Shown here: piece by piece, positions 6,414 through 62,287 of the stretch
Layout of the letters: every line of letters begins with the position of its first letter
Numbering within the stretch: position 1 is the stretch's first letter
Origin: Ianthella basta
Taxonomy: Eukaryota > Porifera > Demospongiae > Verongiida > Ianthellidae
Direction of reading: 5' to 3'
Assembly: GCA_964019415.1 (NCBI GenBank)
Contig: OZ025875.1
Coordinates: 4,170,411-4,234,410 of the forward strand
Length of the DNA: 64,000 bases
Notes under the pieces: generated by a model
What the model saw: the letters and a program-made list of their open reading frames with translations, nothing else
Told to the model about the DNA's origin: nothing
Databases searched by the model: none
Translations under genes and position numbers: made by a program

Positions 6414-7200
6414 ATGGCAGCGACCCTCAGGAGAATCGAGGAGTTTGACAGGGACAAAGAAGAATGGTCCCAGTACCAGGAGCGGCTGGAATACTTCTTC
6501 CAGGTGAACGAGATTGAGGATGCAGACAAGAAACGCGCAGTTTTCCTTTCGCTGATTGGATCCAACACGTACAACGGCTACGAAATTTGATTGCACCGGC
6601 AAAGCCTGATACAAAGACATACGCGCAACTTGTCAAGGCATTAGCTGATCACTTCAGCCCTACTCCAACAGAGAGTGTGCAGCGATTTAAGTTCCATAGT
6701 CGGGTCCGCAAACCTGGTGAGTCAGTTGCAACATTTGTTTCAGAGCTTCGGTGTCTTGCAGAGTTCTGCAACTTTAGAGCAGCACTAGAAGACATGCTCC
6801 GTGATCGCCTTGTCTGCGGTATCAATGATGCAGGCATTCAGCGACGGCTGTTAGCAGAATCTACACTGTCTTTCAAGAAGGCCTTCGAACTGGCACAGGG
6901 TTTGGAGTCCGCTGCACAGAATGTCAAGCAGTTGCAAAGTACGGGCTCCAGACAAGAGGTGCCAGGGGCAACAGGGACCACCCACATGCAGGGAGTCCAC
7001 AAGGTGTCACATCCAGATCAAAGGAAGTCAGACAGTGGTGCTAATTGTTATCGCTGTGACAAGTCAGGACACAGTGCTGCCAAGTGCAGGTTCAAGGATG
7101 TGAAGTGTCACTACTGCAGCAAAACAGGACACATCAAAGCCGTGTACCGCATGAAACAGAAGACAGCAGCTGGGAAGAAACCACAATCTGTGCGTGTGGT
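6414..7200 (+). pseudogene. Retrotransposon gag region (broken)
   Basis: The gag-type frame opens at ATG 6414. A frameshift near 6570 moves the reading into the frame open from 6587. The nucleocapsid end has two zinc knuckles: CYRCDKSGHSAAKC (about 7045-7086) is complete, but the second (from about 7105) reads CHYC...GH...Y, so its last cysteine is a tyrosine. The gag protein would package element RNA; this copy is disrupted. Confidence 0.85.
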
Positions 7201-8180
7201 TCAGCAAGAAGACGAATACCCTCTGTTTCACATGGGATCAGTTGGTCGTTCAAAGCCCTTGACGGTGACATTAGCAATTGATGATTGTCCGGTACTGATG
7301 GAAGTAGACATGGGAGCGGCCCTGTCTATTGTATCCGAAGCAACATTCAAAGAGTTGTGGCCGGACAAGAGCCCATCGAGCTCAAATGTCAGATTGTGCT
7401 CTTACTCGGGAGAAGCAATCCCCGTTGTTGGAAGCATGGATGTCAACATCAATTACAAAGTTCAAGTAGCTCACCTACCACTTGTGGTAGTGAAGGGGGA
7501 AGGCCCGAACCTCCTTGGGAGAAACTGGCTTGAGAAGATACGACTGGACTGGAGAGAAATCCATTACCTCCAGGACAAGTTGATGTCAGTTGTCGCCAAA
7601 CATGAAGAATTGTTTCAAGGTGGCTTAGGTAAACTCCGTGGGCACAAGGTGAAGATCCTGGTGGACCCAAATGCCAAGCCACGCTTCTGCAAGGCCATTC
7701 CGTATGCCTTCAAAGCCAAGGTGGAAGATGAGTTGGAACGCCTCGTTAAGGAAGGTACCCTAGAGCCTGTGCAATTCTCAGAATGGGCGGCCCCAATTGT
7801 TCCGGTTCTGAAGAGTGACAAGTCCAGTATCCGAATTTGTGGGGACTTCCGCCTGACAGTGAACCCAGTGTCCAAGCTAGACAGATACCCAATTCCCAAG
7901 GTTGAGAATCTTTTTGCAGCACTTGGAGGTGGGAAGTTGTTCTCAAAGATTGACCTCACCCAAGCCTATCAGCAACTCCCTCTTGATGATGAGTCCAAGC
8001 AGTATGTGGTGATCAATACCCACAATAGGGGTATTTCGCTACACTCGCCTACCGTTTGGTATCTCATCAGCCCCTGGAATATTTCAACGAGTGATAGAAA
8101 GTGTTCTGCAGGGAATTCCAGGAGTCACTGAGTACCTAGACGACATCTTGGTGTCAGGATTGACTGAAGAGTAACTTTGA
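7200..8180 (+). pseudogene. Retrotransposon protease and reverse transcriptase (broken)
   Basis: The retropepsin motif reads VDMGAALSI, where the family has D-T/S-G-A: the catalytic triad residue next to Asp is Met (ATG for ACG, a transition). RT follows with the usual Ty3/gypsy landmarks (DFRLTVNPV, FSKIDLTQAY). A frameshift near 8020-8030 splits it, and the YLDD catalytic box at 8133-8144 lies in the shifted frame, followed by a stop near 8173. Confidence 0.9.
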
Positions 8181-8198
8181 AAACCCTGGACCAAGTGT

Positions 8199-8940
8199 TT
8201 GATCGTCTGGAGAAAGCAGGACTACGTGTCCGCAGAGACAAATGCGAGTTCATGTATTTCTGTCACGTATTTGGGACATCAGATTGACCCGGATGGTCTA
8301 CATCCGCTCTCAGACAAAGTCCAAGCTGTGAAAGATGCCCCCAGTCCACGGAATGTTCAGGAGCTGAAGGCTTACCTGGGCTTACTCACATATTATGGCA
8401 AGTTCCTCCCAGACTTATCGACTGTCCTTGCTTCTCTGTACAAGTTACTAAGGAAAGATACACGCTGGCGATGGGCAGAAGAAGAAAAGCAGGCATTCCA
8501 AGAATCAAAGGATTTGCTGACATCCTCCCGTCTTCTCGTCCACTTTGACCCGCAATTGAAGTTGATTCTCGCCTGTGATGCTTCTTCTTACGGTGTCGGA
8601 GCTGTGCTTGCACACCAAATGCCTGATGGTTCCGAACAGCCAATCGGGTATGCATCACGTACACTGTCTAAGAGTGAGAAGAACTACTCCTAACTTGAAA
8701 AGGAGGCACTGGCTTGTGTGTTCGGTGTCCGACGATTCCACTCGTACTTGTTTGGACATCACTTTGAACTGTATACAGACCACCAGCCACTTCTTGCCCT
8801 CCTGAATGAGCATCGACCAACATCACCCCAGGCATCAGCCCGTGTTCGTCGTTGGGCTTTACTCCTCTCCACATACGAGTACACATTGAGGTTTCGGAAT
8901 ACACATGCTCATGCTAATGCAGATGCGTTGAGTAGGCTAC
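8199..8940 (+). pseudogene. Retrotransposon RT thumb/connection and RNase H (broken)
   Basis: The frame encodes the RT C-terminal part (YLGHQIDPDGLHPLS, a typical gypsy block, with a further shift near 8260), then RNase H (ILACDASSYGVGAVLAHQ with its first Asp). It is interrupted by TAA at 8691-8693, where the family has Gln, and resumes in frame with LEKEALACVFGVRRF and a DHQPLL block. Confidence 0.9.
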
Positions 8941-10380
8941 CGCTACCCATTGTTCCAGAACAGGTGCCTACACCACCAGAATTGGTGCTTCTAACGGAGC
9001 GTTTGACGGACTCTCCTGTCACGGCAGATCAAATCCGTGATTGGACAAGAAGAGATCCTTCCCTTGCATCAGTTCTCCAGTTTGTCATGCAAGGATGGCC
9101 AAGCCAATGTGACCAGGAACTAGCACCATTTGCATTGCGCAAATCAGAGCTTTCGATGCACGATGGCTGCCTTGTGTGGGGTGCTCGTGTGGTCATTCCA
9201 CCACAAGGCCGACAGGCAGTGTTGCAGGAACTGCACGAAGGTCACTTGGGGATGACAAAGATGAAGGCTTTGGCTAGAATGTATGTATGGTGGCCTGGAA
9301 TTGATAGAGATATTGAAGATTCAGTGCGCACCTGCTCCCAATGTTAAGCCAATCAGTCATTACCCCCGGTAGCTCCTTTATATCCTTGGGGCTGGCCTGT
9401 GCGCCCATGGACCAGACTGCACATTGACTACGCAGGTCCATTGTATGGTCACATGTTTTTGGTCGTGATCGATGCCCATTCTAAATGAATTGAAGCATTC
9501 AGAGTATCCTCATCAACATCCAAGATCACGATCAACAAGTTGAGAATGCTATTTGCTCAGTTTGGCTTGCCAGAAAACATTGTCACTGATAATGGATCGT
9601 GCTTCGTTAGTGAAGAATTTGCAGCATTTCTCAAGGACAATGGCATCAAGCACATCACTTCCACACCCTATCATCCATCTTCGAATGGATTGGCAGAGCG
9701 AGCAGTCCAGATACTCAAAAGTGGGCTTAAGACGGTAACAGAAGGTGACCTTGACACCCGAATTGCCTGAGTCTTGTTTGCGTACAGAATTGCTCCACAA
9801 AGCACTACAGGAGTCTCTCCATCAGAGCTTCTTTTGGGAAACCTCGATCAAGACTGGAACTTTTGAGACCCAACACAGCAAAGCGTGTTGAGAACAAGCA
9901 GTTGCAACAGAAAACAACACATGATGTGTCTGCTTGTCAATGCAAGTTTGAAGTTGGTGACCTGGTGTACATCCTGATTTCAGACCAGGGGAGAAGTGAA
10001 TCCCAGGTGAAATCATACAGTCGAATGGCCCAGTATCATTCAGCATTCAGTTGCAAAATGGGAAGATTGTACACAGGCATCAAGATCACATGCGACAGCG
10101 CACAGAGAGACAGCAAGCAAGAAGTGATTCCGGGACAGTGGCAGTAGATGATGACAGTGATATGCTCACAGAAATGCCGTCAGTTGAGACATCAGCAGAG
10201 ACCTCATCAGAGATAGCTGACACCGAGGGGACATCCTCTAGCAATCAGCATGTTGAGAATTCCTCAAACGAGGCTGCCACTTCCACTTCTACTTCACGTA
10301 CGTCAGCGACGCCTCGTTACCCGCAACGAGTGTGTAAACAACCTGACAGGTTTTTCAGTAGTTACTGTATCCATGTTTAA
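8940..10380 (+). pseudogene. Retrotransposon integrase and C-terminal tail (broken)
   Basis: The HHCC zinc finger (HEGHLG ... CSQC) ends at a TAA at 9345-9347. The catalytic core retains the three acidic positions (HIDYAG, VTDNGS, LAERAV) but carries TGA stops near 9486 and 9768. A frameshift near 9840-9865 precedes the C-terminal domain, whose GPVSF-type GPY/F motif (about 10028-10042) lies in another frame after a further TGA near 9988. The tail to the TAA at 10378 is Ser/Thr-rich. The inspected stops all fit C-to-T or G-to-A changes. Confidence 0.9.
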
Positions 10381-26491: not shown

Positions 26492-29400
26492 TCAGCTATA
26501 TTTGTAGGGTTGTTCGATGGTGTCTTCCAGCTCACCGCTGGCAGCATCTGCCACCTTAACATGGGCAGTGGTGCTGTCCAGTCGGGGGCGCCTGTTGTCT
26601 TCCTTTGCAGCTGGAGAGAGAATAAGGCGATTAGGCTTATCCTCCGCAAGAGTCATCTTAAAGTAACCCATATGGTCGGTATCCCTTGACTGTTGTGAAC
26701 TGTATAATTTGATAGGCTTCATGTGTGCTGGTGGTGGCTGTGCTGGAGACAAATTGACATAAGCAGGATGGCTAGATTTGCTTGTCTTATGGTCTGTAGT
26801 GTCTGCTACAACAATAGACTCCAGTGAAGGATCAATATTAACATATGCTGACCCTGGAGACTCACTTCTTCTGGAAACAGGCAAAATGGGATGGCTCAGC
26901 TTTGGACGCAGTGGAACTTTCTTAGAGTTTGATGGATTTGGGTTTGCTTGGCTACCTTTTGCTCCTTGCTCCCTGCTTTGGTGCCTCTCCCTCACTGAGG
27001 TCGCTGAACTATCAGCACCCATATGGAAGATTTGTGCATTGCTGCCTTTGTGCGGGGGAGCAGATAAGGGAGGGGACTCAGCTTGTGACAACAACTCCAG
27101 TGACTGATGTTTCTCCAGAGAAATAGGAGCAGGTCTCCTACTCTTGTCCAGCACAGGTGATTCACTTCTTACTTTTGAGGAAGCCATCGCATAAGATGCA
27201 TCTATGCTCCCTGGTCTACTAGGAGGTCGTTGGTGGGGTGGCCGAAGTGGTAGCTTTCTGCCATGCTCCGCCTGCACCTCCTCATGTCCTACCTCGCTTT
27301 CAGGATTAAAATTGACATACGAATGCTTGGTAGTCTTTGGTTTTGCTGGCACAGGAGGAGCATGCTTGCCAGAGCCATGTGCAGGAAGGTTTACATATGG
27401 AGTAGCTTTCTGCTTTTTACCAGAACCACCATCACATTGTTGTCCTTGTAATGGCTGGGTAATGTGTGTTGTGCTTTGTGTTGATAGCTTCCGTTTCAGC
27501 ATTAGTATATTAGTGCTATCCATTTTCTCATATTCCTCATCTGATGAGGAGCCTGTAGCTGCAGGGAGTGTCATAAGTTCATACACCTCCTTTGAACCAT
27601 CAGAACCAGAGGTGTCTGCCCTTTTCTTTGACTTCAGCCTCTGGTGGAGCGGACCTTTTCTAGCAGGGCCACCACCAGCAGGGCCACCACCAGATGGGCC
27701 TGTAGGGGTCACTTTAGCACTGGGCAAGAGTGTAGTTGTCACAGCTGCAGTCAAGTCATAATATGCTCCAACTTCAGCACTTCTGTTCTCATTAATCACC
27801 ACAGCCATTCCCAGTTCTTGGCAAGTGCCTTGTCTGTTCACTTCCACCAGTTCAGCACTAAATTGTCCGGAGTTCAAGGAAGTACAATCAGAGCTGTGTC
27901 TTCTCCTACTTTCTTGGACATCACCACCTTCCTCACCATCAGATGATGTCTGGTGTTTCAACCATGGCATAGGGACAGGCTTCACCTTACCAGTCACTGC
28001 TGCTGGTACAGCATACACTGAACCTTCACTGTTCAGCATTAGGTCTTCCAATCTGATGACTGTGGCTAGTTCTGTAGACATCAGAGACTCTTTGGATTCC
28101 TCCATCTCTTCAATAGCAGGCACCTTACTAGAGCGCTTTATAGAGCCTGCAGGCTTGTCACTGACGAAGGTGGACTTTCGAAGGTGAGCAGTAGGTTGCA
28201 TAATAGGGTGCACAGCAGAAGTACCCCTAAGTGAAGACGCACTTGTTATGACCAGAGGTCGACTGCGAGATGATTTGGGATTAATGGCAGTGTGAGCACT
28301 TTCACCTCCAGCTGAAATACTGGCAAATGGTCCAGGAACCTGCCTTGCAAATGTGGGTACAACATGTTCAGTGTATCGTCTCATGGTTGAGGAAGGATTT
28401 CCCAGAAGTGTTCCTGTGTGGTTGACATGACAAAGTCGGAATGTCTCCAAAAGAAAATTCCTCTTCCTTGCTTCCAACAACTGCAAATGTTCTCTGGCTG
28501 TCATTGATGAGATAGCAATGACGTAGAGTCCGTGATGCAAGACAGGATTGGACTGTGTGATCTTGGCGTGTCTCTCGGTGAAGACGGAGCAGTTGAGTCC
28601 AATACCTGTGCTGAAAATGGTAAAGTGGCTAGACTGTGGATGTTTGTACGGCAGTGAATCAGGAGCGCTTGCCAGATGAGGCCAAACACAGACCGTCGGG
28701 GCTGGGTATATCGACAGCACACCGGCACAATCAGCGTAGTCACTGTGCAGGTGTAGGACCGTGAGTGGAATACGTGTGGTGCTGTCCAGTAGAAGGACTG
28801 TTCCCTTCGACAGTGCTACCCACATGACATCAGCCACAGCAATAAGTGCATAGACAGCTTTGACTCCGAGGGAGCACTCCTCCACATAGCAGTCACAGCA
28901 ATCCACAATCTCATTTGGCTTCTCATCATCTGTGAATAAAATTGTAAGTTTAACAGAATTTTTCTGAGCTGCCCAAATTTCTCCAAAGCTTTCATTGGTG
29001 CCTGGCTTGAATGGTACAGCAATCATGGCAACATGGCCAACATGCCAGCGCCAGGTCTCATTCAGGGAGTGTATATTGAAAGCCTTCAGCATGGATTGTG
29101 AGGCGAAGAAAATGGTATCACCAAAGCATTGCACCAGCTGAATTGCTTCACACTCAAAAACACTGAGAGTGGACTGCAATGCAAACTCTTCCAGTGTGTC
29201 ACTCATCACATGCACCATTGCTTGGCCATTGTTAAGCCCAAACACCACCTTTGCCACTCCATCTGTGTCCACAGAGATAACTTCTGAAGGGAAAGTGAGT
29301 TTCTTGACAACTTTGGTTAACTTCATGTTCAAAACAGAAACAGTCTCTGTGTTGTGCACGGCGAAGAGGAACTTGTTGAGCATGCAGCCTCTTTTGATCA

Positions 29401-32400
29401 CATCAACAGTCTTCACATCTCTGGTGGCCTGAACGGCTAGGTCCTGACTGGAGTAACGCTGAAAGTGAGTGCTGCCTTCCTCATCGATTGAGGCATAGAA
29501 GACTACAGGACCTCCATCTCCCTTGCTCACACTGCAAGGCAAGGGAAAGGACATAACAGTGCACTGTGGGTAGCACTTCTTCTCTCCTGTGACAATCTTG
29601 TACTTCATGGGAAGGAGAGTCTGAGCCTGTAGAAATACATGAAGCAGATCAGAAGAGTAGGGTCGTTTCCCTGGCTCCTCCTGCCATGATCGATGGAGTG
29701 TGGTTAAAAGCAATGGGGCTGTGGAAACTAAGGGCTCAACTGCAGGCTTAGAGTGTCCATTAGGATCAAGGAGCATTCCAGTGAGAATCTCGTACGCTAG
29801 GAAGGCAAAAGAATAGACATCCACTCGACTATCATACTCATACTGCTCCTTGTCCCAAGACATTTCCGGGGCAGGATGATGGCCACATTTTCCTCGCAGA
29901 GAGTCACGGTACAAAGCATTTGCTGCATGTTCGAATCCCAAAACTTTGGCATCTACTGCTGAGCCATCCGGGCTAATCTGCACCAAGATGTTGTGACTAG
30001 AAATGTCACGGTGAATGATACCGTTGGTGTGCAGTACTGACAGACCCTCTGCAGCTTGCATCAGAATGTGCAGAGCCAAGTGTCTCTGCAATTTGCCATT
30101 TTGTTCAATAACGGAATTCAGAGGCACATACTCCTTGGAGTTGCAAGTGAAGGTCGGAGGTAGTCCAAGGTTGGCTTCCTGGAGCACTGCCAAGTGGGGA
30201 CATTTCAGTGTGGTGAGCTCCAGCAACATAAACAGCTGTCGTTCAAAGTCACTTTGCATACCTGATGCATTTTGCTCTGAAACATCTGGAATTGTAAGCT
30301 TAGCGGTATCTTCTGTGTTAGCCTCAGCTGTGCACGTCAGCTGAAAGCTGGTTCCAAATGTACCATGCAGTGCTTCACTAAGGAGATCTGGCAGCAAAGA
30401 AAGTGGGAAGACATCAGCCTCTTTGTGGAGAGGACAGCATAGAGGCTTCTTGGATATTAACTTTCTTGCACAGTGAAGAAAAGGGTAATAGTGGGATTGG
30501 GGTTCGGCATCTAGCCTGCACTGTGAACAAGGGATCCACACCTTCACGTTGGGCCAAATGGAGGGGTACCAGTTGCGTAAGATGCTCATGACAATGTTGA
30601 ACAGTTTGGTGAGTAGCCTCATGCCACGAACAGACAGGGGGACTATGATGCCAATGGCGTCCTCGTCAGCAAATATCTCCTGTCTGACAGCAAAGCAGAG
30701 CTTGTCCAGGCCTCGTCGGACCACCATGCCACAAGCCCAGTGTTGAAGCAACACCTGCCCAGGAGGGCTAGTGTCACTGGGAGGAATGCTTGTCTCTTGA
30801 GGTGTCAATTTAATAAGGGCATCTGCATTTATAGTTAGATGCACCAGAAGACGATTCCAAAATCCTGGCAGCAGAATGGGTGCAGAGATAACCCTACTGC
30901 ATGTGTTGTCCAGAGGAATGGGCTCTGGGCTGTCCTTCAGAGTGTGTGGCACAAAGTAGGTGTCACGGTTGAGAGGGAATGCAACTCCCGTGTGCATCAG
31001 GTGCATGACCAGAACAGATGGTAAACCATCCCCTAAGCCAAGGCCAGAGAAAATGGTAGCCTGAGCTGGCTCTGGAAGAATTCCTTGCCGGACGAATGCA
31101 TTGGTGTGAACAACATTCACAGCTCGAAGCACAAAATCACACAGCCACTGCCGATCGAACACGATTCCTCTCCTGTTGCAAAGTGTAAACAGCTTGCCTT
31201 GCACTTCTAGGCTCTGAAGTAACCAGTTCAGTTCTGGCAGAGAGGAATCGCTCTCAACAGAATCAAGAGACTCCTGCAGCATTCTGCCATAAAGGATTGG
31301 TTTGCGCTCATCCTTGGTAGACTGTGCATTTAGGCTGTCCTTACTGCTGCTTGAGGTAGTGGACAAATGAAAATGTCTGTCAATGACACTTTCATACCGA
31401 GGAAGGGCAATGGGAGTTGCAATTTTACTGTTGCATCCCCGCAGCAGTTTCACAAAGTGGGAGAGGTCACAATTAGCCAACTGTGAAGAAATTGTTATAT
31501 TCACTGGGCAAGGAGTGATGTTACAGGTTGGGAATTGACCAGACAATGTCTCCACCTCACACATGAATTGCTTATCCAATAGCTCACTCTTCCGTTTGGC
31601 ACTCATAGAGGGGGAATGCTCACTGACTTTGCAACAACTGGCCACCACAATTTCTGCCTTGGAGTAAAGCAAGGACAGGAATTTCAGAACTGGTTTGAAT
31701 AAGGTAGTGAGCTGCGATGGGAGAGTAGCTGCATTGATTGCAAAGACAAAAACCTGAGGTGGTTTAAGTATGGTCTCCACAGCTGACAGGAAAAGAGCAG
31801 GGGATGGTGAGAAAATGACAGAGAAACCATATTGTGTTGAAAGAGATCGGACAGCTGTCACCAAATCTGCTTCAGTCTGTGAGGCTGTTCCAGTGCCAAT
31901 AAACACAGCCTCAAAGTGTTCAACACCAGCAATGTTCTTGCTGAGTGCTCTGAAATACTCTAGCACCATCGGCAGTGTGTACAGAGGTGGCAAATTTTCG
32001 ATTGTCATTCCCTCCAGAACAAGTTGCTCCAGATTCTGTAGCCATCGGATGTTGAAGGGGATGACTCTAAGGGCAGGATTATTGCTCAGCTTTAAGTATC
32101 TGAGGTTGGTCATTGCCAGAACTGCTTTGGGGAGCTCAGACAGGCAGTTGCACTGTAGTTCAAGGTGCTGAAGCTTAGGGGCAGAGAAAGAATCGGGGAT
32201 AGTCGTGAGACGGTTGTATGAGAGATACAAGTAAACAGCAGAGGTACTGCTGCCATCTGGAAGATCTGGTAGCTCCACAAGGAAGTTATCTGTTAGCCGA
32301 ATTTCCTGTAACAAAGGAAGGAGAAACAGCTCAGCAGGCACGGTCTTCAGTTGACAATCTGTTGCATGAAAGTTTGTCAAGGCCGGAAAAGACATCGTGG

Positions 32401-32977
32401 GGAACGGAAACAACACCTCAATGGAATTGTGTGAAAGGTTCACAGTGGTGAAATTCAGCATATCTGGTGCCTGCAGGTCGCATTTGCTTAGAACATCTTC
32501 CGTCAAGCCCAGTGAAGACAGATTTAGTGAATGTACAGGACTTTTCTTGATTGCCTGTGAAGCGCCAAGCAAGAGAGCAGCTATAGTTGATGCTTGTTCA
32601 GTTCTGCAAGCAATCTTCACCACTGTGTTCAGAGAGAAGGACTGATGAATAAGTGTTGGCAGAAGTATCTCTCGCCAATCAAGGATGTTGCGTTGGTGTG
32701 GATGACCCTTTGGTGGTGGGCCCTTGCCAAGAAGGGCTCTGATCAAGCTTGTATCACTGTGAAGTGTGGCTCGACACAGCATGAGATATACTGTGACATG
32801 ATTGATCAGTCGGTACGCTGGCTTAATGCAGTGGGGTGCCTCATCAAAGCGGTCAAGTAAGGCAACAACAGTTCTGTGGTCCCCGTAATTAATGCACATC
32901 TCCATGACGTCGCTGAAGAATCGCAGTACCTTCTCCCTTGTGAGCACTTTGTGGACATTACTGAACTCAGTGATAAG
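26492..32977 (-). CDS. ROCO/LRRK-like pseudoenzyme with phosphotyrosine docking tail (giant exon)
   Basis: One exon of about 2161 codons, acceptor TTAG at 32978-32981, stop TGA 26492-26494. Residues are numbered from a GTG at 32947 that is not a start codon. About 140-320: leucine-rich repeats (LSYNRLTTIPDSF, LKLSNNPALRVIP). About 325-545: Roc-like fold, with GTGTASQTEA where a P-loop should be and no N/TKxD. About 545-800: COR, then a Cys cluster. About 860-1110: kinase, with HRDISSHN and APE kept, but LGFEH in place of DFG and no clear Gly-loop or VAIK Lys. About 1120-1490: probable beta-propeller. The rest is disordered tail with YELM, YEKM, YFKM (YxxM), four YVN[LFI], YAVP and proline runs. 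LRRK proteins are cytosolic signalling GTPase-kinases; this one is inferred to be a catalytically inactive scaffold. Confidence 0.8.
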   Translation of the reverse strand, partial: LITEFSNVHKVLTREKVLRFFSDVMEMCINYGDHRTVVALLDRFDEAPHCIKPAYRLINHVTVYLMLCRATLHSDTSLIRALLGKGPPPKGHPHQRNILDWREILLPTLIHQSFSLNTVVKIACRTEQASTIAALLLGASQAIKKSPVHSLNLSSLGLTEDVLSKCDLQAPDMLNFTTVNLSHNSIEVLFPFPTMSFPALTNFHATDCQLKTVPAELFLLPLLQEIRLTDNFLVELPDLPDGSSTSAVYLYLSYNRLTTIPDSFSAPKLQHLELQCNCLSELPKAVLAMTNLRYLKLSNNPALRVIPFNIRWLQNLEQLVLEGMTIENLPPLYTLPMVLEYFRALSKNIAGVEHFEAVFIGTGTASQTEADLVTAVRSLSTQYGFSVIFSPSPALFLSAVETILKPPQVFVFAINAATLPSQLTTLFKPVLKFLSLLYSKAEIVVASCCKVSEHSPSMSAKRKSELLDKQFMCEVETLSGQFPTCNITPCPVNITISSQLANCDLSHFVKLLRGCNSKIATPIALPRYESVIDRHFHLSTTSSSSKDSLNAQSTKDERKPILYGRMLQESLDSVESDSSLPELNWLLQSLEVQGKLFTLCNRRGIVFDRQWLCDFVLRAVNVVHTNAFVRQGILPEPAQATIFSGLGLGDGLPSVLVMHLMHTGVAFPLNRDTYFVPHTLKDSPEPIPLDNTCSRVISAPILLPGFWNRLLVHLTINADALIKLTPQETSIPPSDTSPPGQVLLQHWACGMVVRRGLDKLCFAVRQEIFADEDAIGIIVPLSVRGMRLLTKLFNIVMSILRNWYPSIWPNVKVWIPCSQCRLDAEPQSHYYPFLHCARKLISKKPLCCPLHKEADVFPLSLLPDLLSEALHGTFGTSFQLTCTAEANTEDTAKLTIPDVSEQNASGMQSDFERQLFMLLELTTLKCPHLAVLQEANLGLPPTFTCNSKEYVPLNSVIEQNGKLQRHLALHILMQAAEGLSVLHTNGIIHRDISSHNILVQISPDGSAVDAKVLGFEHAANALYRDSLRGKCGHHPAPEMSWDKEQYEYDSRVDVYSFAFLAYEILTGMLLDPNGHSKPAVEPLVSTAPLLLTTLHRSWQEEPGKRPYSSDLLHVFLQAQTLLPMKYKIVTGEKKCYPQCTVMSFPLPCSVSKGDGGPVVFYASIDEEGSTHFQRYSSQDLAVQATRDVKTVDVIKRGCMLNKFLFAVHNTETVSVLNMKLTKVVKKLTFPSEVISVDTDGVAKVVFGLNNGQAMVHVMSDTLEEFALQSTLSVFECEAIQLVQCFGDTIFFASQSMLKAFNIHSLNETWRWHVGHVAMIAVPFKPGTNESFGEIWAAQKNSVKLTILFTDDEKPNEIVDCCDCYVEECSLGVKAVYALIAVADVMWVALSKGTVLLLDSTTRIPLTVLHLHSDYADCAGVLSIYPAPTVCVWPHLASAPDSLPYKHPQSSHFTIFSTGIGLNCSVFTERHAKITQSNPVLHHGLYVIAISSMTAREHLQLLEARKRNFLLETFRLCHVNHTGTLLGNPSSTMRRYTEHVVPTFARQVPGPFASISAGGESAHTAINPKSSRSRPLVITSASSLRGTSAVHPIMQPTAHLRKSTFVSDKPAGSIKRSSKVPAIEEMEESKESLMSTELATVIRLEDLMLNSEGSVYAVPAAVTGKVKPVPMPWLKHQTSSDGEEGGDVQESRRRHSSDCTSLNSGQFSAELVEVNRQGTCQELGMAVVINENRSAEVGAYYDLTAAVTTTLLPSAKVTPTGPSGGGPAGGGPARKGPLHQRLKSKKRADTSGSDGSKEVYELMTLPAATGSSSDEEYEKMDSTNILMLKRKLSTQSTTHITQPLQGQQCDGGSGKKQKATPYVNLPAHGSGKHAPPVPAKPKTTKHSYVNFNPESEVGHEEVQAEHGRKLPLRPPHQRPPSRPGSIDASYAMASSKVRSESPVLDKSRRPAPISLEKHQSLELLSQAESPPLSAPPHKGSNAQIFHMGADSSATSVRERHQSREQGAKGSQANPNPSNSKKVPLRPKLSHPILPVSRRSESPGSAYVNIDPSLESIVVADTTDHKTSKSSHPAYVNLSPAQPPPAHMKPIKLYSSQQSRDTDHMGYFKMTLAEDKPNRLILSPAAKEDNRRPRLDSTTAHVKVADAASGELEDTIEQPYKYS

Positions 32978-61266: not shown

Positions 61267-61561
61267 GCCCTCACAGCCACCCACACAACAGTACCAGAAC
61301 CATAGCAGACTACACAGTAGCACTTGCATGACTGCTTGTAGCATCAGTAGCACTTTTGTTGATGTTACTTTGTGATTGTATGATAGACGATGCAGCATGT
61401 ATAGCTAGCTAGGTACTTGATAAGCACGCCTCCACATCCTGCAGGTACCTTTGCCAATCATATACAATGTGTATATCCCACATGATGTGAGGTACGTATA
61501 TCGTGTCTCTTACAATAATATTTAAGCGGCCATTTATGTGAATGGGTGTGTTGTGTACGTA

Positions 61562-62287
61562 ATGGCACGTCACGGAAATACCATAATGAGTCAGCTACAA
61601 ATGGCTGCCGCCGCAAAGAACGACGATATGCTCAAGAATGTTTTCACTTGCAGCACGGCAGAAGAGGTGACTGCGATATTCAAGGCATACGTTGCAGGTG
61701 ATCGAAAGAAGCGTATCCCAAAGGAGTACGCGCAACATCGCATCGGGTTGGCGAACAAGGAGGGGAAGGAGTGCTACTTTTATCTTCATTACCAGACGAA
61801 GGATGAGCAAAAGTGGTTCCCCTTTTCGAATTTCCTAAAGTCTCCCATCTATGTTGATGGAATAACGTACCCCACTACTGAAACTTTCTTCCAGTGCGAG
61901 AAAGTTAATCCGAAGAACCTCCACGGGAAAGGACTGTCGGAAGCAGAAATCCAAGCTTGCAAACACAAGTGGCAGAGCATGATTGGGCTGTATGCTGGTG
62001 ACGCAGCGAAGCGAGGTAGAGACAGAGACACCAGGATTGCTCCAGACTGGGATGACCGTGCCAACCCTTTGTGTGAACAGGCAATGTACCGGGCATTGAA
62101 GGCAAAGTTTACACAGCATGCCGATTTGAAGGAGCTTCTCCTGTCTACTGGAGATAGGAAGATTGTAGAGGACACGGCCCAGTCCGCTGACTATAAGTGG
62201 GGGTGTGGTGCAGATGGGACAGGGCAGAACCTGTTGGGTGAGATCTTAATGAAGGTGCGCAATGATGTACGCAAGGAATCAGCATAG
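61562..62287 (+). CDS. NADAR/YbiA-like domain protein, intronless, 241 aa
   Basis: A single open frame from ATG 61562 to TAG 62285-62287; the frame extends upstream only through a GTG. Motifs are those of the NADAR (YbiA/COG3236) fold: KWFPFSNF, then GITYPTTETFFQCEK, then APDWDDR with M...L..KF, LLSTGDRKIVEDT and the terminal WGCGADGTGQNLLGEILM. Known relatives cleave the N-glycosidic bond in riboflavin-pathway intermediates or remove ADP-ribose from guanine. The conserved Glu, Asp and Trp-Gly positions are present, so activity is plausible. The first 50 residues are an extra helical segment. It is the only intronless complete gene here beside intron-rich neighbours, so retrocopy or horizontal origin is possible. 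Substrate unknown. Confidence 0.85.
   Translation: MARHGNTIMSQLQMAAAAKNDDMLKNVFTCSTAEEVTAIFKAYVAGDRKKRIPKEYAQHRIGLANKEGKECYFYLHYQTKDEQKWFPFSNFLKSPIYVDGITYPTTETFFQCEKVNPKNLHGKGLSEAEIQACKHKWQSMIGLYAGDAAKRGRDRDTRIAPDWDDRANPLCEQAMYRALKAKFTQHADLKELLLSTGDRKIVEDTAQSADYKWGCGADGTGQNLLGEILMKVRNDVRKESA

Follow-up and report, generated by a model that had tools for sequence, protein, structure and literature searches.

What might a protein built on the plan of LRRK1 do if it lacks the catalytic motifs of both of its enzymes? Proteins of the LRRK family, which is linked to Parkinson's disease, are studied as paired GTPase-kinase enzymes, and the question is raised by a 64,000-nucleotide stretch of the genome of the sponge Ianthella basta (contig OZ025875.1, positions 4,170,411 to 4,234,410; hereafter the window), where a single open exon on the minus strand encodes a LRRK1-like protein of 2161 residues. 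The answer to which we give slightly better than even chances is that this is a divergent LRRK1-type ROCO protein whose GTPase and kinase functions would have been lost, and which may now serve as a scaffold recruiting GRB2 and PI3K upon tyrosine phosphorylation. An initial annotation, made from the sequence alone, had proposed much the same, and its observations were partly confirmed and its interpretation partly supported. The motifs on which it relied (GTGTASQTEA, HRD, LGFEH, APE, YELM, YEKM, YFKM and four YVN[LFI]) are all present in the open frame.

The domain order of the LRRK1-like protein is leucine-rich repeats (LRRs), Roc position, COR, kinase, a weak LRRK-type propeller and a 601-residue tail (Table 1). 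Pfam placed LRR_8 and Pkinase above cut-off, so that, as in ROCO proteins, LRRs precede and a kinase follows COR. COR-B itself scored below its cut-off (20.4 vs 27 bits) and is backed by alignments, and the LRRK order of these blocks given in the initial annotation stands with that qualification. The WD40/beta-propeller between kinase and tail had been overlooked; its profile, Beta-prop_LRRK2, is also sub-threshold (E of 0.016 for the whole protein and 0.0018 for the region alone; 17.8 bits vs a cut-off of 26.9). Among the best 60 of 1625 matches in a PDB search, the top ones were LRR proteins, and the best ROCO protein was LRRK1 (1.3e-20, LRRs included), compared with 1e-10 for LRRK2, in agreement with the LRRK-type ancestry claimed earlier. 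With COR and kinase alone, LRRK1 again came first by a small margin (6.7e-13 vs 1.7e-11), and a profile of a six-protein family that includes the LRRK1-like protein matched LRRK2 at 7.5e-105 and LRRK1 at 9.8e-103. A CxxC...CxxH motif in COR-B is unchanged across the six proteins of alignment A1 and is also seen in the LRRK1 row, but the stretch there scores low (1.2 bits). There is good support for an origin of the protein among LRRK-type proteins, on their LRRK1 side. The protein shares with LRRK1 the order of LRR, COR, kinase and propeller and the COR-B motif, and differs from it in lacking the G-motifs and DFG and in carrying the tyrosine-motif tail; LRRK2 aligns in COR, kinase and propeller, but scores lower than LRRK1 with this protein alone and is set apart by the same motif losses and tail.

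At the P-loop place of the Roc position stands GTGTASQTEA, and in an alignment with paralogues the P-loop, switch II and the G4 motif are all missing. The kinase-like domain is clearly kinase-related by sequence (hhalign score of 60.3, compared with ≤23.2 in 60 shuffles). Its DFG is replaced by GFE (residues 1014-1016, in the context LGFEH), with loss of the DFG Asp, and the lysine of HRDxK is Ser; HRD (HRDISSHN), the Asn after it and APE are retained. Of the claim that both catalytic domains are degenerate, the loss of the DFG Asp therefore holds, and the Roc identity is positional.

The tail contains 14 Tyr and sets itself apart from the body through their sequence contexts. When residues 1561-2161 were shuffled 200,000 times at constant composition, the four YVN[LFI] sites (0.025 expected) were never reached, and the three YxxM sites (0.33 expected) were reached in 653, both figures being conditional on YVN and YxxM having been chosen by the initial annotation ahead of the test. 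By comparison, the 35 Tyr of residues 1-1560 provide no YxN and one YxxM. Across 21 paralogue frames (18,601 residues), YVN occurs once in total and never more than once in a frame, and this sole occurrence appears, by eye, to lie beyond a likely splice donor and to be an intron reading; two of these frames (C20_4300b and C20_3928b) are cut by locus ends, and later exons were read for C20_3222 only. The last 572 tail residues have no own-genome relative at E≤1. Docking proteins of the IRS/GAB/DOK type have tails with multiple YxxM and YVN-type sites, and by sequence the several SH2-docking-type tyrosine motifs found here are of that kind. The proline runs also named as a tail feature did not hold up: an excess of PxxP was rejected (8 vs 5.1 expected; 24,766/200,000 shuffles as high).

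Proteins that could read these motifs are encoded in the same genome, which yielded 70 SH2 matches. Two GRB2-like genes comprise SH3-SH2-SH3 pieces and the sequence KYFLWVVKF, within which the Trp gives GRB2 its preference for Asn at +2; one of them matches GRB2 at 3.6e-22. On the PI3K side, a p85-type nSH2 matches PI3K regulatory subunit alpha at 1.3e-39, and the genome also encodes two PI3K p85-binding domains. A scaffold linking PI3K and Ras signalling, as suggested in the initial annotation, is consistent with the motif excess and with these encoded partners, to which the tail would bind. IRS-type PTB domains gave 14 matches elsewhere in the genome. The two GRB2-like genes (L067, L069) adjoin each other at C15:6.23 Mb, and their SH2 exons are nearly identical.

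The LRRK1-like protein most likely acts like a docking protein. In the mechanism that we propose, the LRR, COR, kinase-fold and propeller parts, catalytically inactive, would form a protein-binding or dimerising platform, and the tail, presumably disordered, would be phosphorylated on tyrosine by a receptor or Src-type kinase; the four pYVN sites could then recruit GRB2, leading towards Ras, and the three pYxxM sites the p85 of class IA PI3K. In mammals, LRRK1 is already known to associate with EGFR through Grb2, and it has a scaffold role and functions in EGFR endosome sorting (available portion of PMC10022742); the LRRK1-Grb2 link also appears in the available portion of PMC6337361. The proposed recruitment of GRB2 would extend this link, and the sponge protein looks like a version of the scaffold role that has become permanent and is encoded in the polypeptide itself. 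No ROCO protein with such a docking tail, and no sponge ROCO pseudokinase, was found among the matches listed in the open-access literature, and the earlier statement that none has been described stands to that extent, tempered by the known LRRK1-Grb2 link. A relative without both activities and with growth-factor docking sites would, if the scaffold reading is true, present the scaffold role standing alone, and would provide an evolutionary case for the mammalian LRRK1-Grb2 link and a natural test of a ROCO body without catalysis.

Several observations weigh against the scaffold reading. The stretch at the Roc position is unrecognisable as Roc by Pfam, hhalign and shuffle-controlled alignment, and its Roc identity is positional. 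The HRD Asp, and maybe the beta-3 Lys, are kept in the kinase, so that ATP binding or DFG-less activity is possible, and kinase decay is not unique to this gene, as HRD and/or DFG Asp is missing in 4/9 aligned paralogues. PH or PTB domains, which could bring the protein to a receptor, have no Pfam match at E≤1 in the protein of this exon. For this reason, we do not file it as an IRS/GAB member, and the proposed IRS/GAB-like tail holds for its motifs only. Its body, unlike that of IRS/GAB/DOK proteins, is of LRR-COR-kinase-propeller type. An own-genome search with the p85 iSH2 model gave 0 matches, perhaps because introns split the domain, and one scan each of genomic and viral contig collections found no orthologue of the gene. 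G+C content at third codon positions is also lower in the tail (0.39-0.42) than in the body (0.45-0.52).

The alternative that survives best, although we consider it unlikely, accepts the docking tail and places at the Roc position a domain that is unrelated or has newly arisen; the protein would then be Roc-less and COR-kinase-like and not a degenerate ROCO. Residues 332-550 matched no family in a Pfam search that scored a paralogue Roc at 3.3e-19, hhalign against 10 paralogue Rocs gave 13.8 (shuffles: mean of 13.2, maximum of 20.2), and the global alignment score with paralogue Rocs was reached by 391/500 shuffles. Paralogue genes, moreover, are split into two frames with the break within Roc, whereas the LRRK1-like gene runs through in one. 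Against this, the Roc position sits between LRR and COR, and the alignment with LRRK1 extends from the LRRs towards the first Roc strand. A marginal local alignment (59, best with paralogue C20_3222; equalled or exceeded by 49/1000 shuffles) scores higher than those of six further segments of the LRRK1-like protein (40-48), and a single-sequence AlphaFold2 model alternates strands and helices in alpha/beta manner at a low predicted local distance difference test score (pLDDT of 53.7). Foldseek gave this model 0/930 matches at E≤0.001, the weak matches among the best 50 of 930 including designed P-loop NTPase folds. Hence, a degenerate Roc between LRR and COR is plausible, but the tests do not establish the one claimed in the initial annotation. 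In the strict sense, with no Roc G-domain found, the protein does not qualify as a member of the ROCO family. Of the checks that the initial annotation had itself suggested, profile searches for Roc, COR and kinase thus recovered the kinase, left COR-B sub-threshold and found no family for Roc, and structure prediction, run from single sequences on the Roc position and the kinase, was of low confidence for both.

It is rather improbable, in our assessment, that the tyrosine motifs are instead YxxPhi sorting signals, recognised in unphosphorylated form by clathrin-adaptor mu subunits, within an endosomal trafficking scaffold like LRRK1. Eight of the 14 tail Tyr fit YxxPhi (L, I, M, F or V at +3), compared with 2.7 expected (73/50,000 shuffles), and all seven YVN/YxxM sites are compatible with it; a role of LRRK1 in EGFR endosome sorting (available portion of PMC10022742) points the same way. 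With YxxPhi positions fixed, however, four occurrences of V at +1 with N at +2 arose in 0/200,000 shuffles, and N at +2 alone four times in 9/200,000. Because the fourfold VN pair was never reached, a sorting signal accounts for less of the pattern than docking of the GRB2 type. A YxxPhi signal does not require V or N at +1/+2.

It is similarly improbable that the protein combines its docking tail with a functional LRRK-type kinase, whose fold would remain active without the DFG Asp, as in CASK, a kinase active without DFG. The retained HRD Asp, following Asn and APE are in keeping with such activity, and LHGTFGTS and TAKL, by eye, are candidate remnants of the glycine loop (GxFG) and the beta-3 lysine. 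The GFE and the Ser described above count against it, as does an alphaC Glu that is not evident by eye. The single-sequence AlphaFold2 model of the kinase was set aside at a pLDDT of 36.7.

Very unlikely is a decaying or misassembled gene, with the motif losses due to relaxed selection and the tail a chance extension: its great branch length in a 10-row tree (4.75 changes per column), the lack of an orthologue in the two scans and the G+C shift at the tail would suit it, but the 2161 codons have no internal stop, compared with 56-138 stops in the other five frames across 26492..32977 (longest opening 188 codons), purines are still commonest at codon position 1 of the tail, and the motif excess remains. 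Tail and body are very likely encoded together. The frame runs from 32977 to a stop at 26494-26492, with a candidate AG acceptor directly before it (32979-32978) and the earliest in-frame ATG at 32905; given the preceding AG, the exon may be an internal or the last one.

A comparison with the wider ROCO family of this genome places the losses in context. COR-A and COR-B profiles gave 24 (17 above cut-off) and 7 (6 above cut-off) own-genome matches, respectively, and the LRRK1-like gene is not among them. The protein itself matched at least 22 further places, 19/22 of them on contig C20, a lower bound since 22 of 318 candidates were scored. LRR and Roc were aligned with 11 other ROCO exons, which omitted the near-copies at C20:4346017 and C20:4360631 (L025, L024), C21_5469a and ROCO fragments on C13, C15 and C17; G-x4-GKT is present in 9/11, the exceptions being C21_619a (GRT) and C20_3222 (GRR). 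Among nine other kinase rows (C21_619b and a partial second frame at C20:6000269 omitted), the HRD Asp is present in 5/9 (lost forms YRN, YRN, YRG and YRA) and the DFG Asp in 7/9 (replaced by NFN in C20_3222 and by NCG in one other row). Kinase decay thus recurs in the own-genome ROCO family. P-loop and kinase-site loss were seen together in the LRRK1-like gene and in C20_3222 (the kinase of C21_619a was not judgeable). The latter (C20:3221761-3227892) has one 1607-codon frame with a P-loop of GGSDVGRR, YRA for HRD and NFN for DFG, and is the best own-genome match of the LRRK1-like kinase alone (place C20:3225907). It resembles the LRRK1-like gene in its lost P-loop and DFG, but is without YVN, and its Roc is recognised by hhalign (35.8 vs ≤21.5 in shuffles). 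In the 10-row tree, the two are long branches that meet, and their placement is unsure.

More broadly, we tentatively propose, and hold somewhat less probable than even, that ROCO proteins early in animals gave rise to non-catalytic phosphotyrosine docking hubs, with LRRK-type bodies free of GTPase and kinase function and tails for GRB2 and PI3K. If so, this genome would contain, in C20_3222, another pseudo-ROCO that follows this trend but has a different (SAM) tail. A SAM domain (7e-9) lies downstream of C20_3222, within C20:3221761-3231000 (L029, L030, L080), and perhaps belongs to the same gene. LRRK1-like paralogues also form a cluster at C20:3.93-4.36 Mb (e.g., L032, L033, L036), in which two genes have decayed kinase motifs (YRN/DFS and YRN/NCG); the cluster suggests that the kinase was lost repeatedly following duplication.

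Table 1. Features of the LRRK1-like gene, with positions in the window.
Feature	Position	Strand	Basis
LRRK1-like gene, single open exon	26492..32977	-	2161 codons + stop; putative splice site
Leucine-rich repeats, residues ~150-331	31985..32530	-	Pfam LRR_8 1.1e-13; paralogue alignment
Roc position, residues 332-550	31328..31984	-	Assigned by location; no G1, G3 or G4 motif
COR-A/COR-B, residues ~556-862	30392..31312	-	Pfam COR-B 4.9e-4, sub-threshold; LRRK1 and paralogue alignments
CxxC...CxxH motif in COR-B, residues 817-851	30425..30529	-	Invariant columns of alignment A1
Kinase-like domain, residues 866-1130	29588..30382	-	Pkinase 9.5e-15; hhalign; alignment
WD40/LRRK beta-propeller region, residues 1131-1535	28373..29587	-	Beta-prop_LRRK2 0.0018, sub-threshold; paralogue alignment
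C-terminal tail, residues 1561-2161, 14 Tyr	26495..28297	-	Motif counts
YELM, Tyr1799	27572..27583	-	Motif count
YEKM, Tyr1816	27521..27532	-	Motif count
YVNL, Tyr1861	27386..27397	-	Motif count
YVNF, Tyr1887	27308..27319	-	Motif count
YVNI, Tyr2045	26834..26845	-	Motif count
YVNL, Tyr2073	26750..26761	-	Motif count
YFKM, Tyr2105	26654..26665	-	Motif count

Elsewhere in the window, an open frame on the minus strand (492-2282) contains the P-loop GPPGSGKST and reads like an NTPase of what we take to be the NACHT/NLR type. Pieces of a Ty3/gypsy-like retrotransposon occupy two separate frames on the plus strand (6587-9347), in which zinc knuckle, reverse transcriptase, RNase H and integrase stretches were noted by eye, and a plus-strand frame at 61538-62287 resembles, by eye only, a NADAR domain protein.

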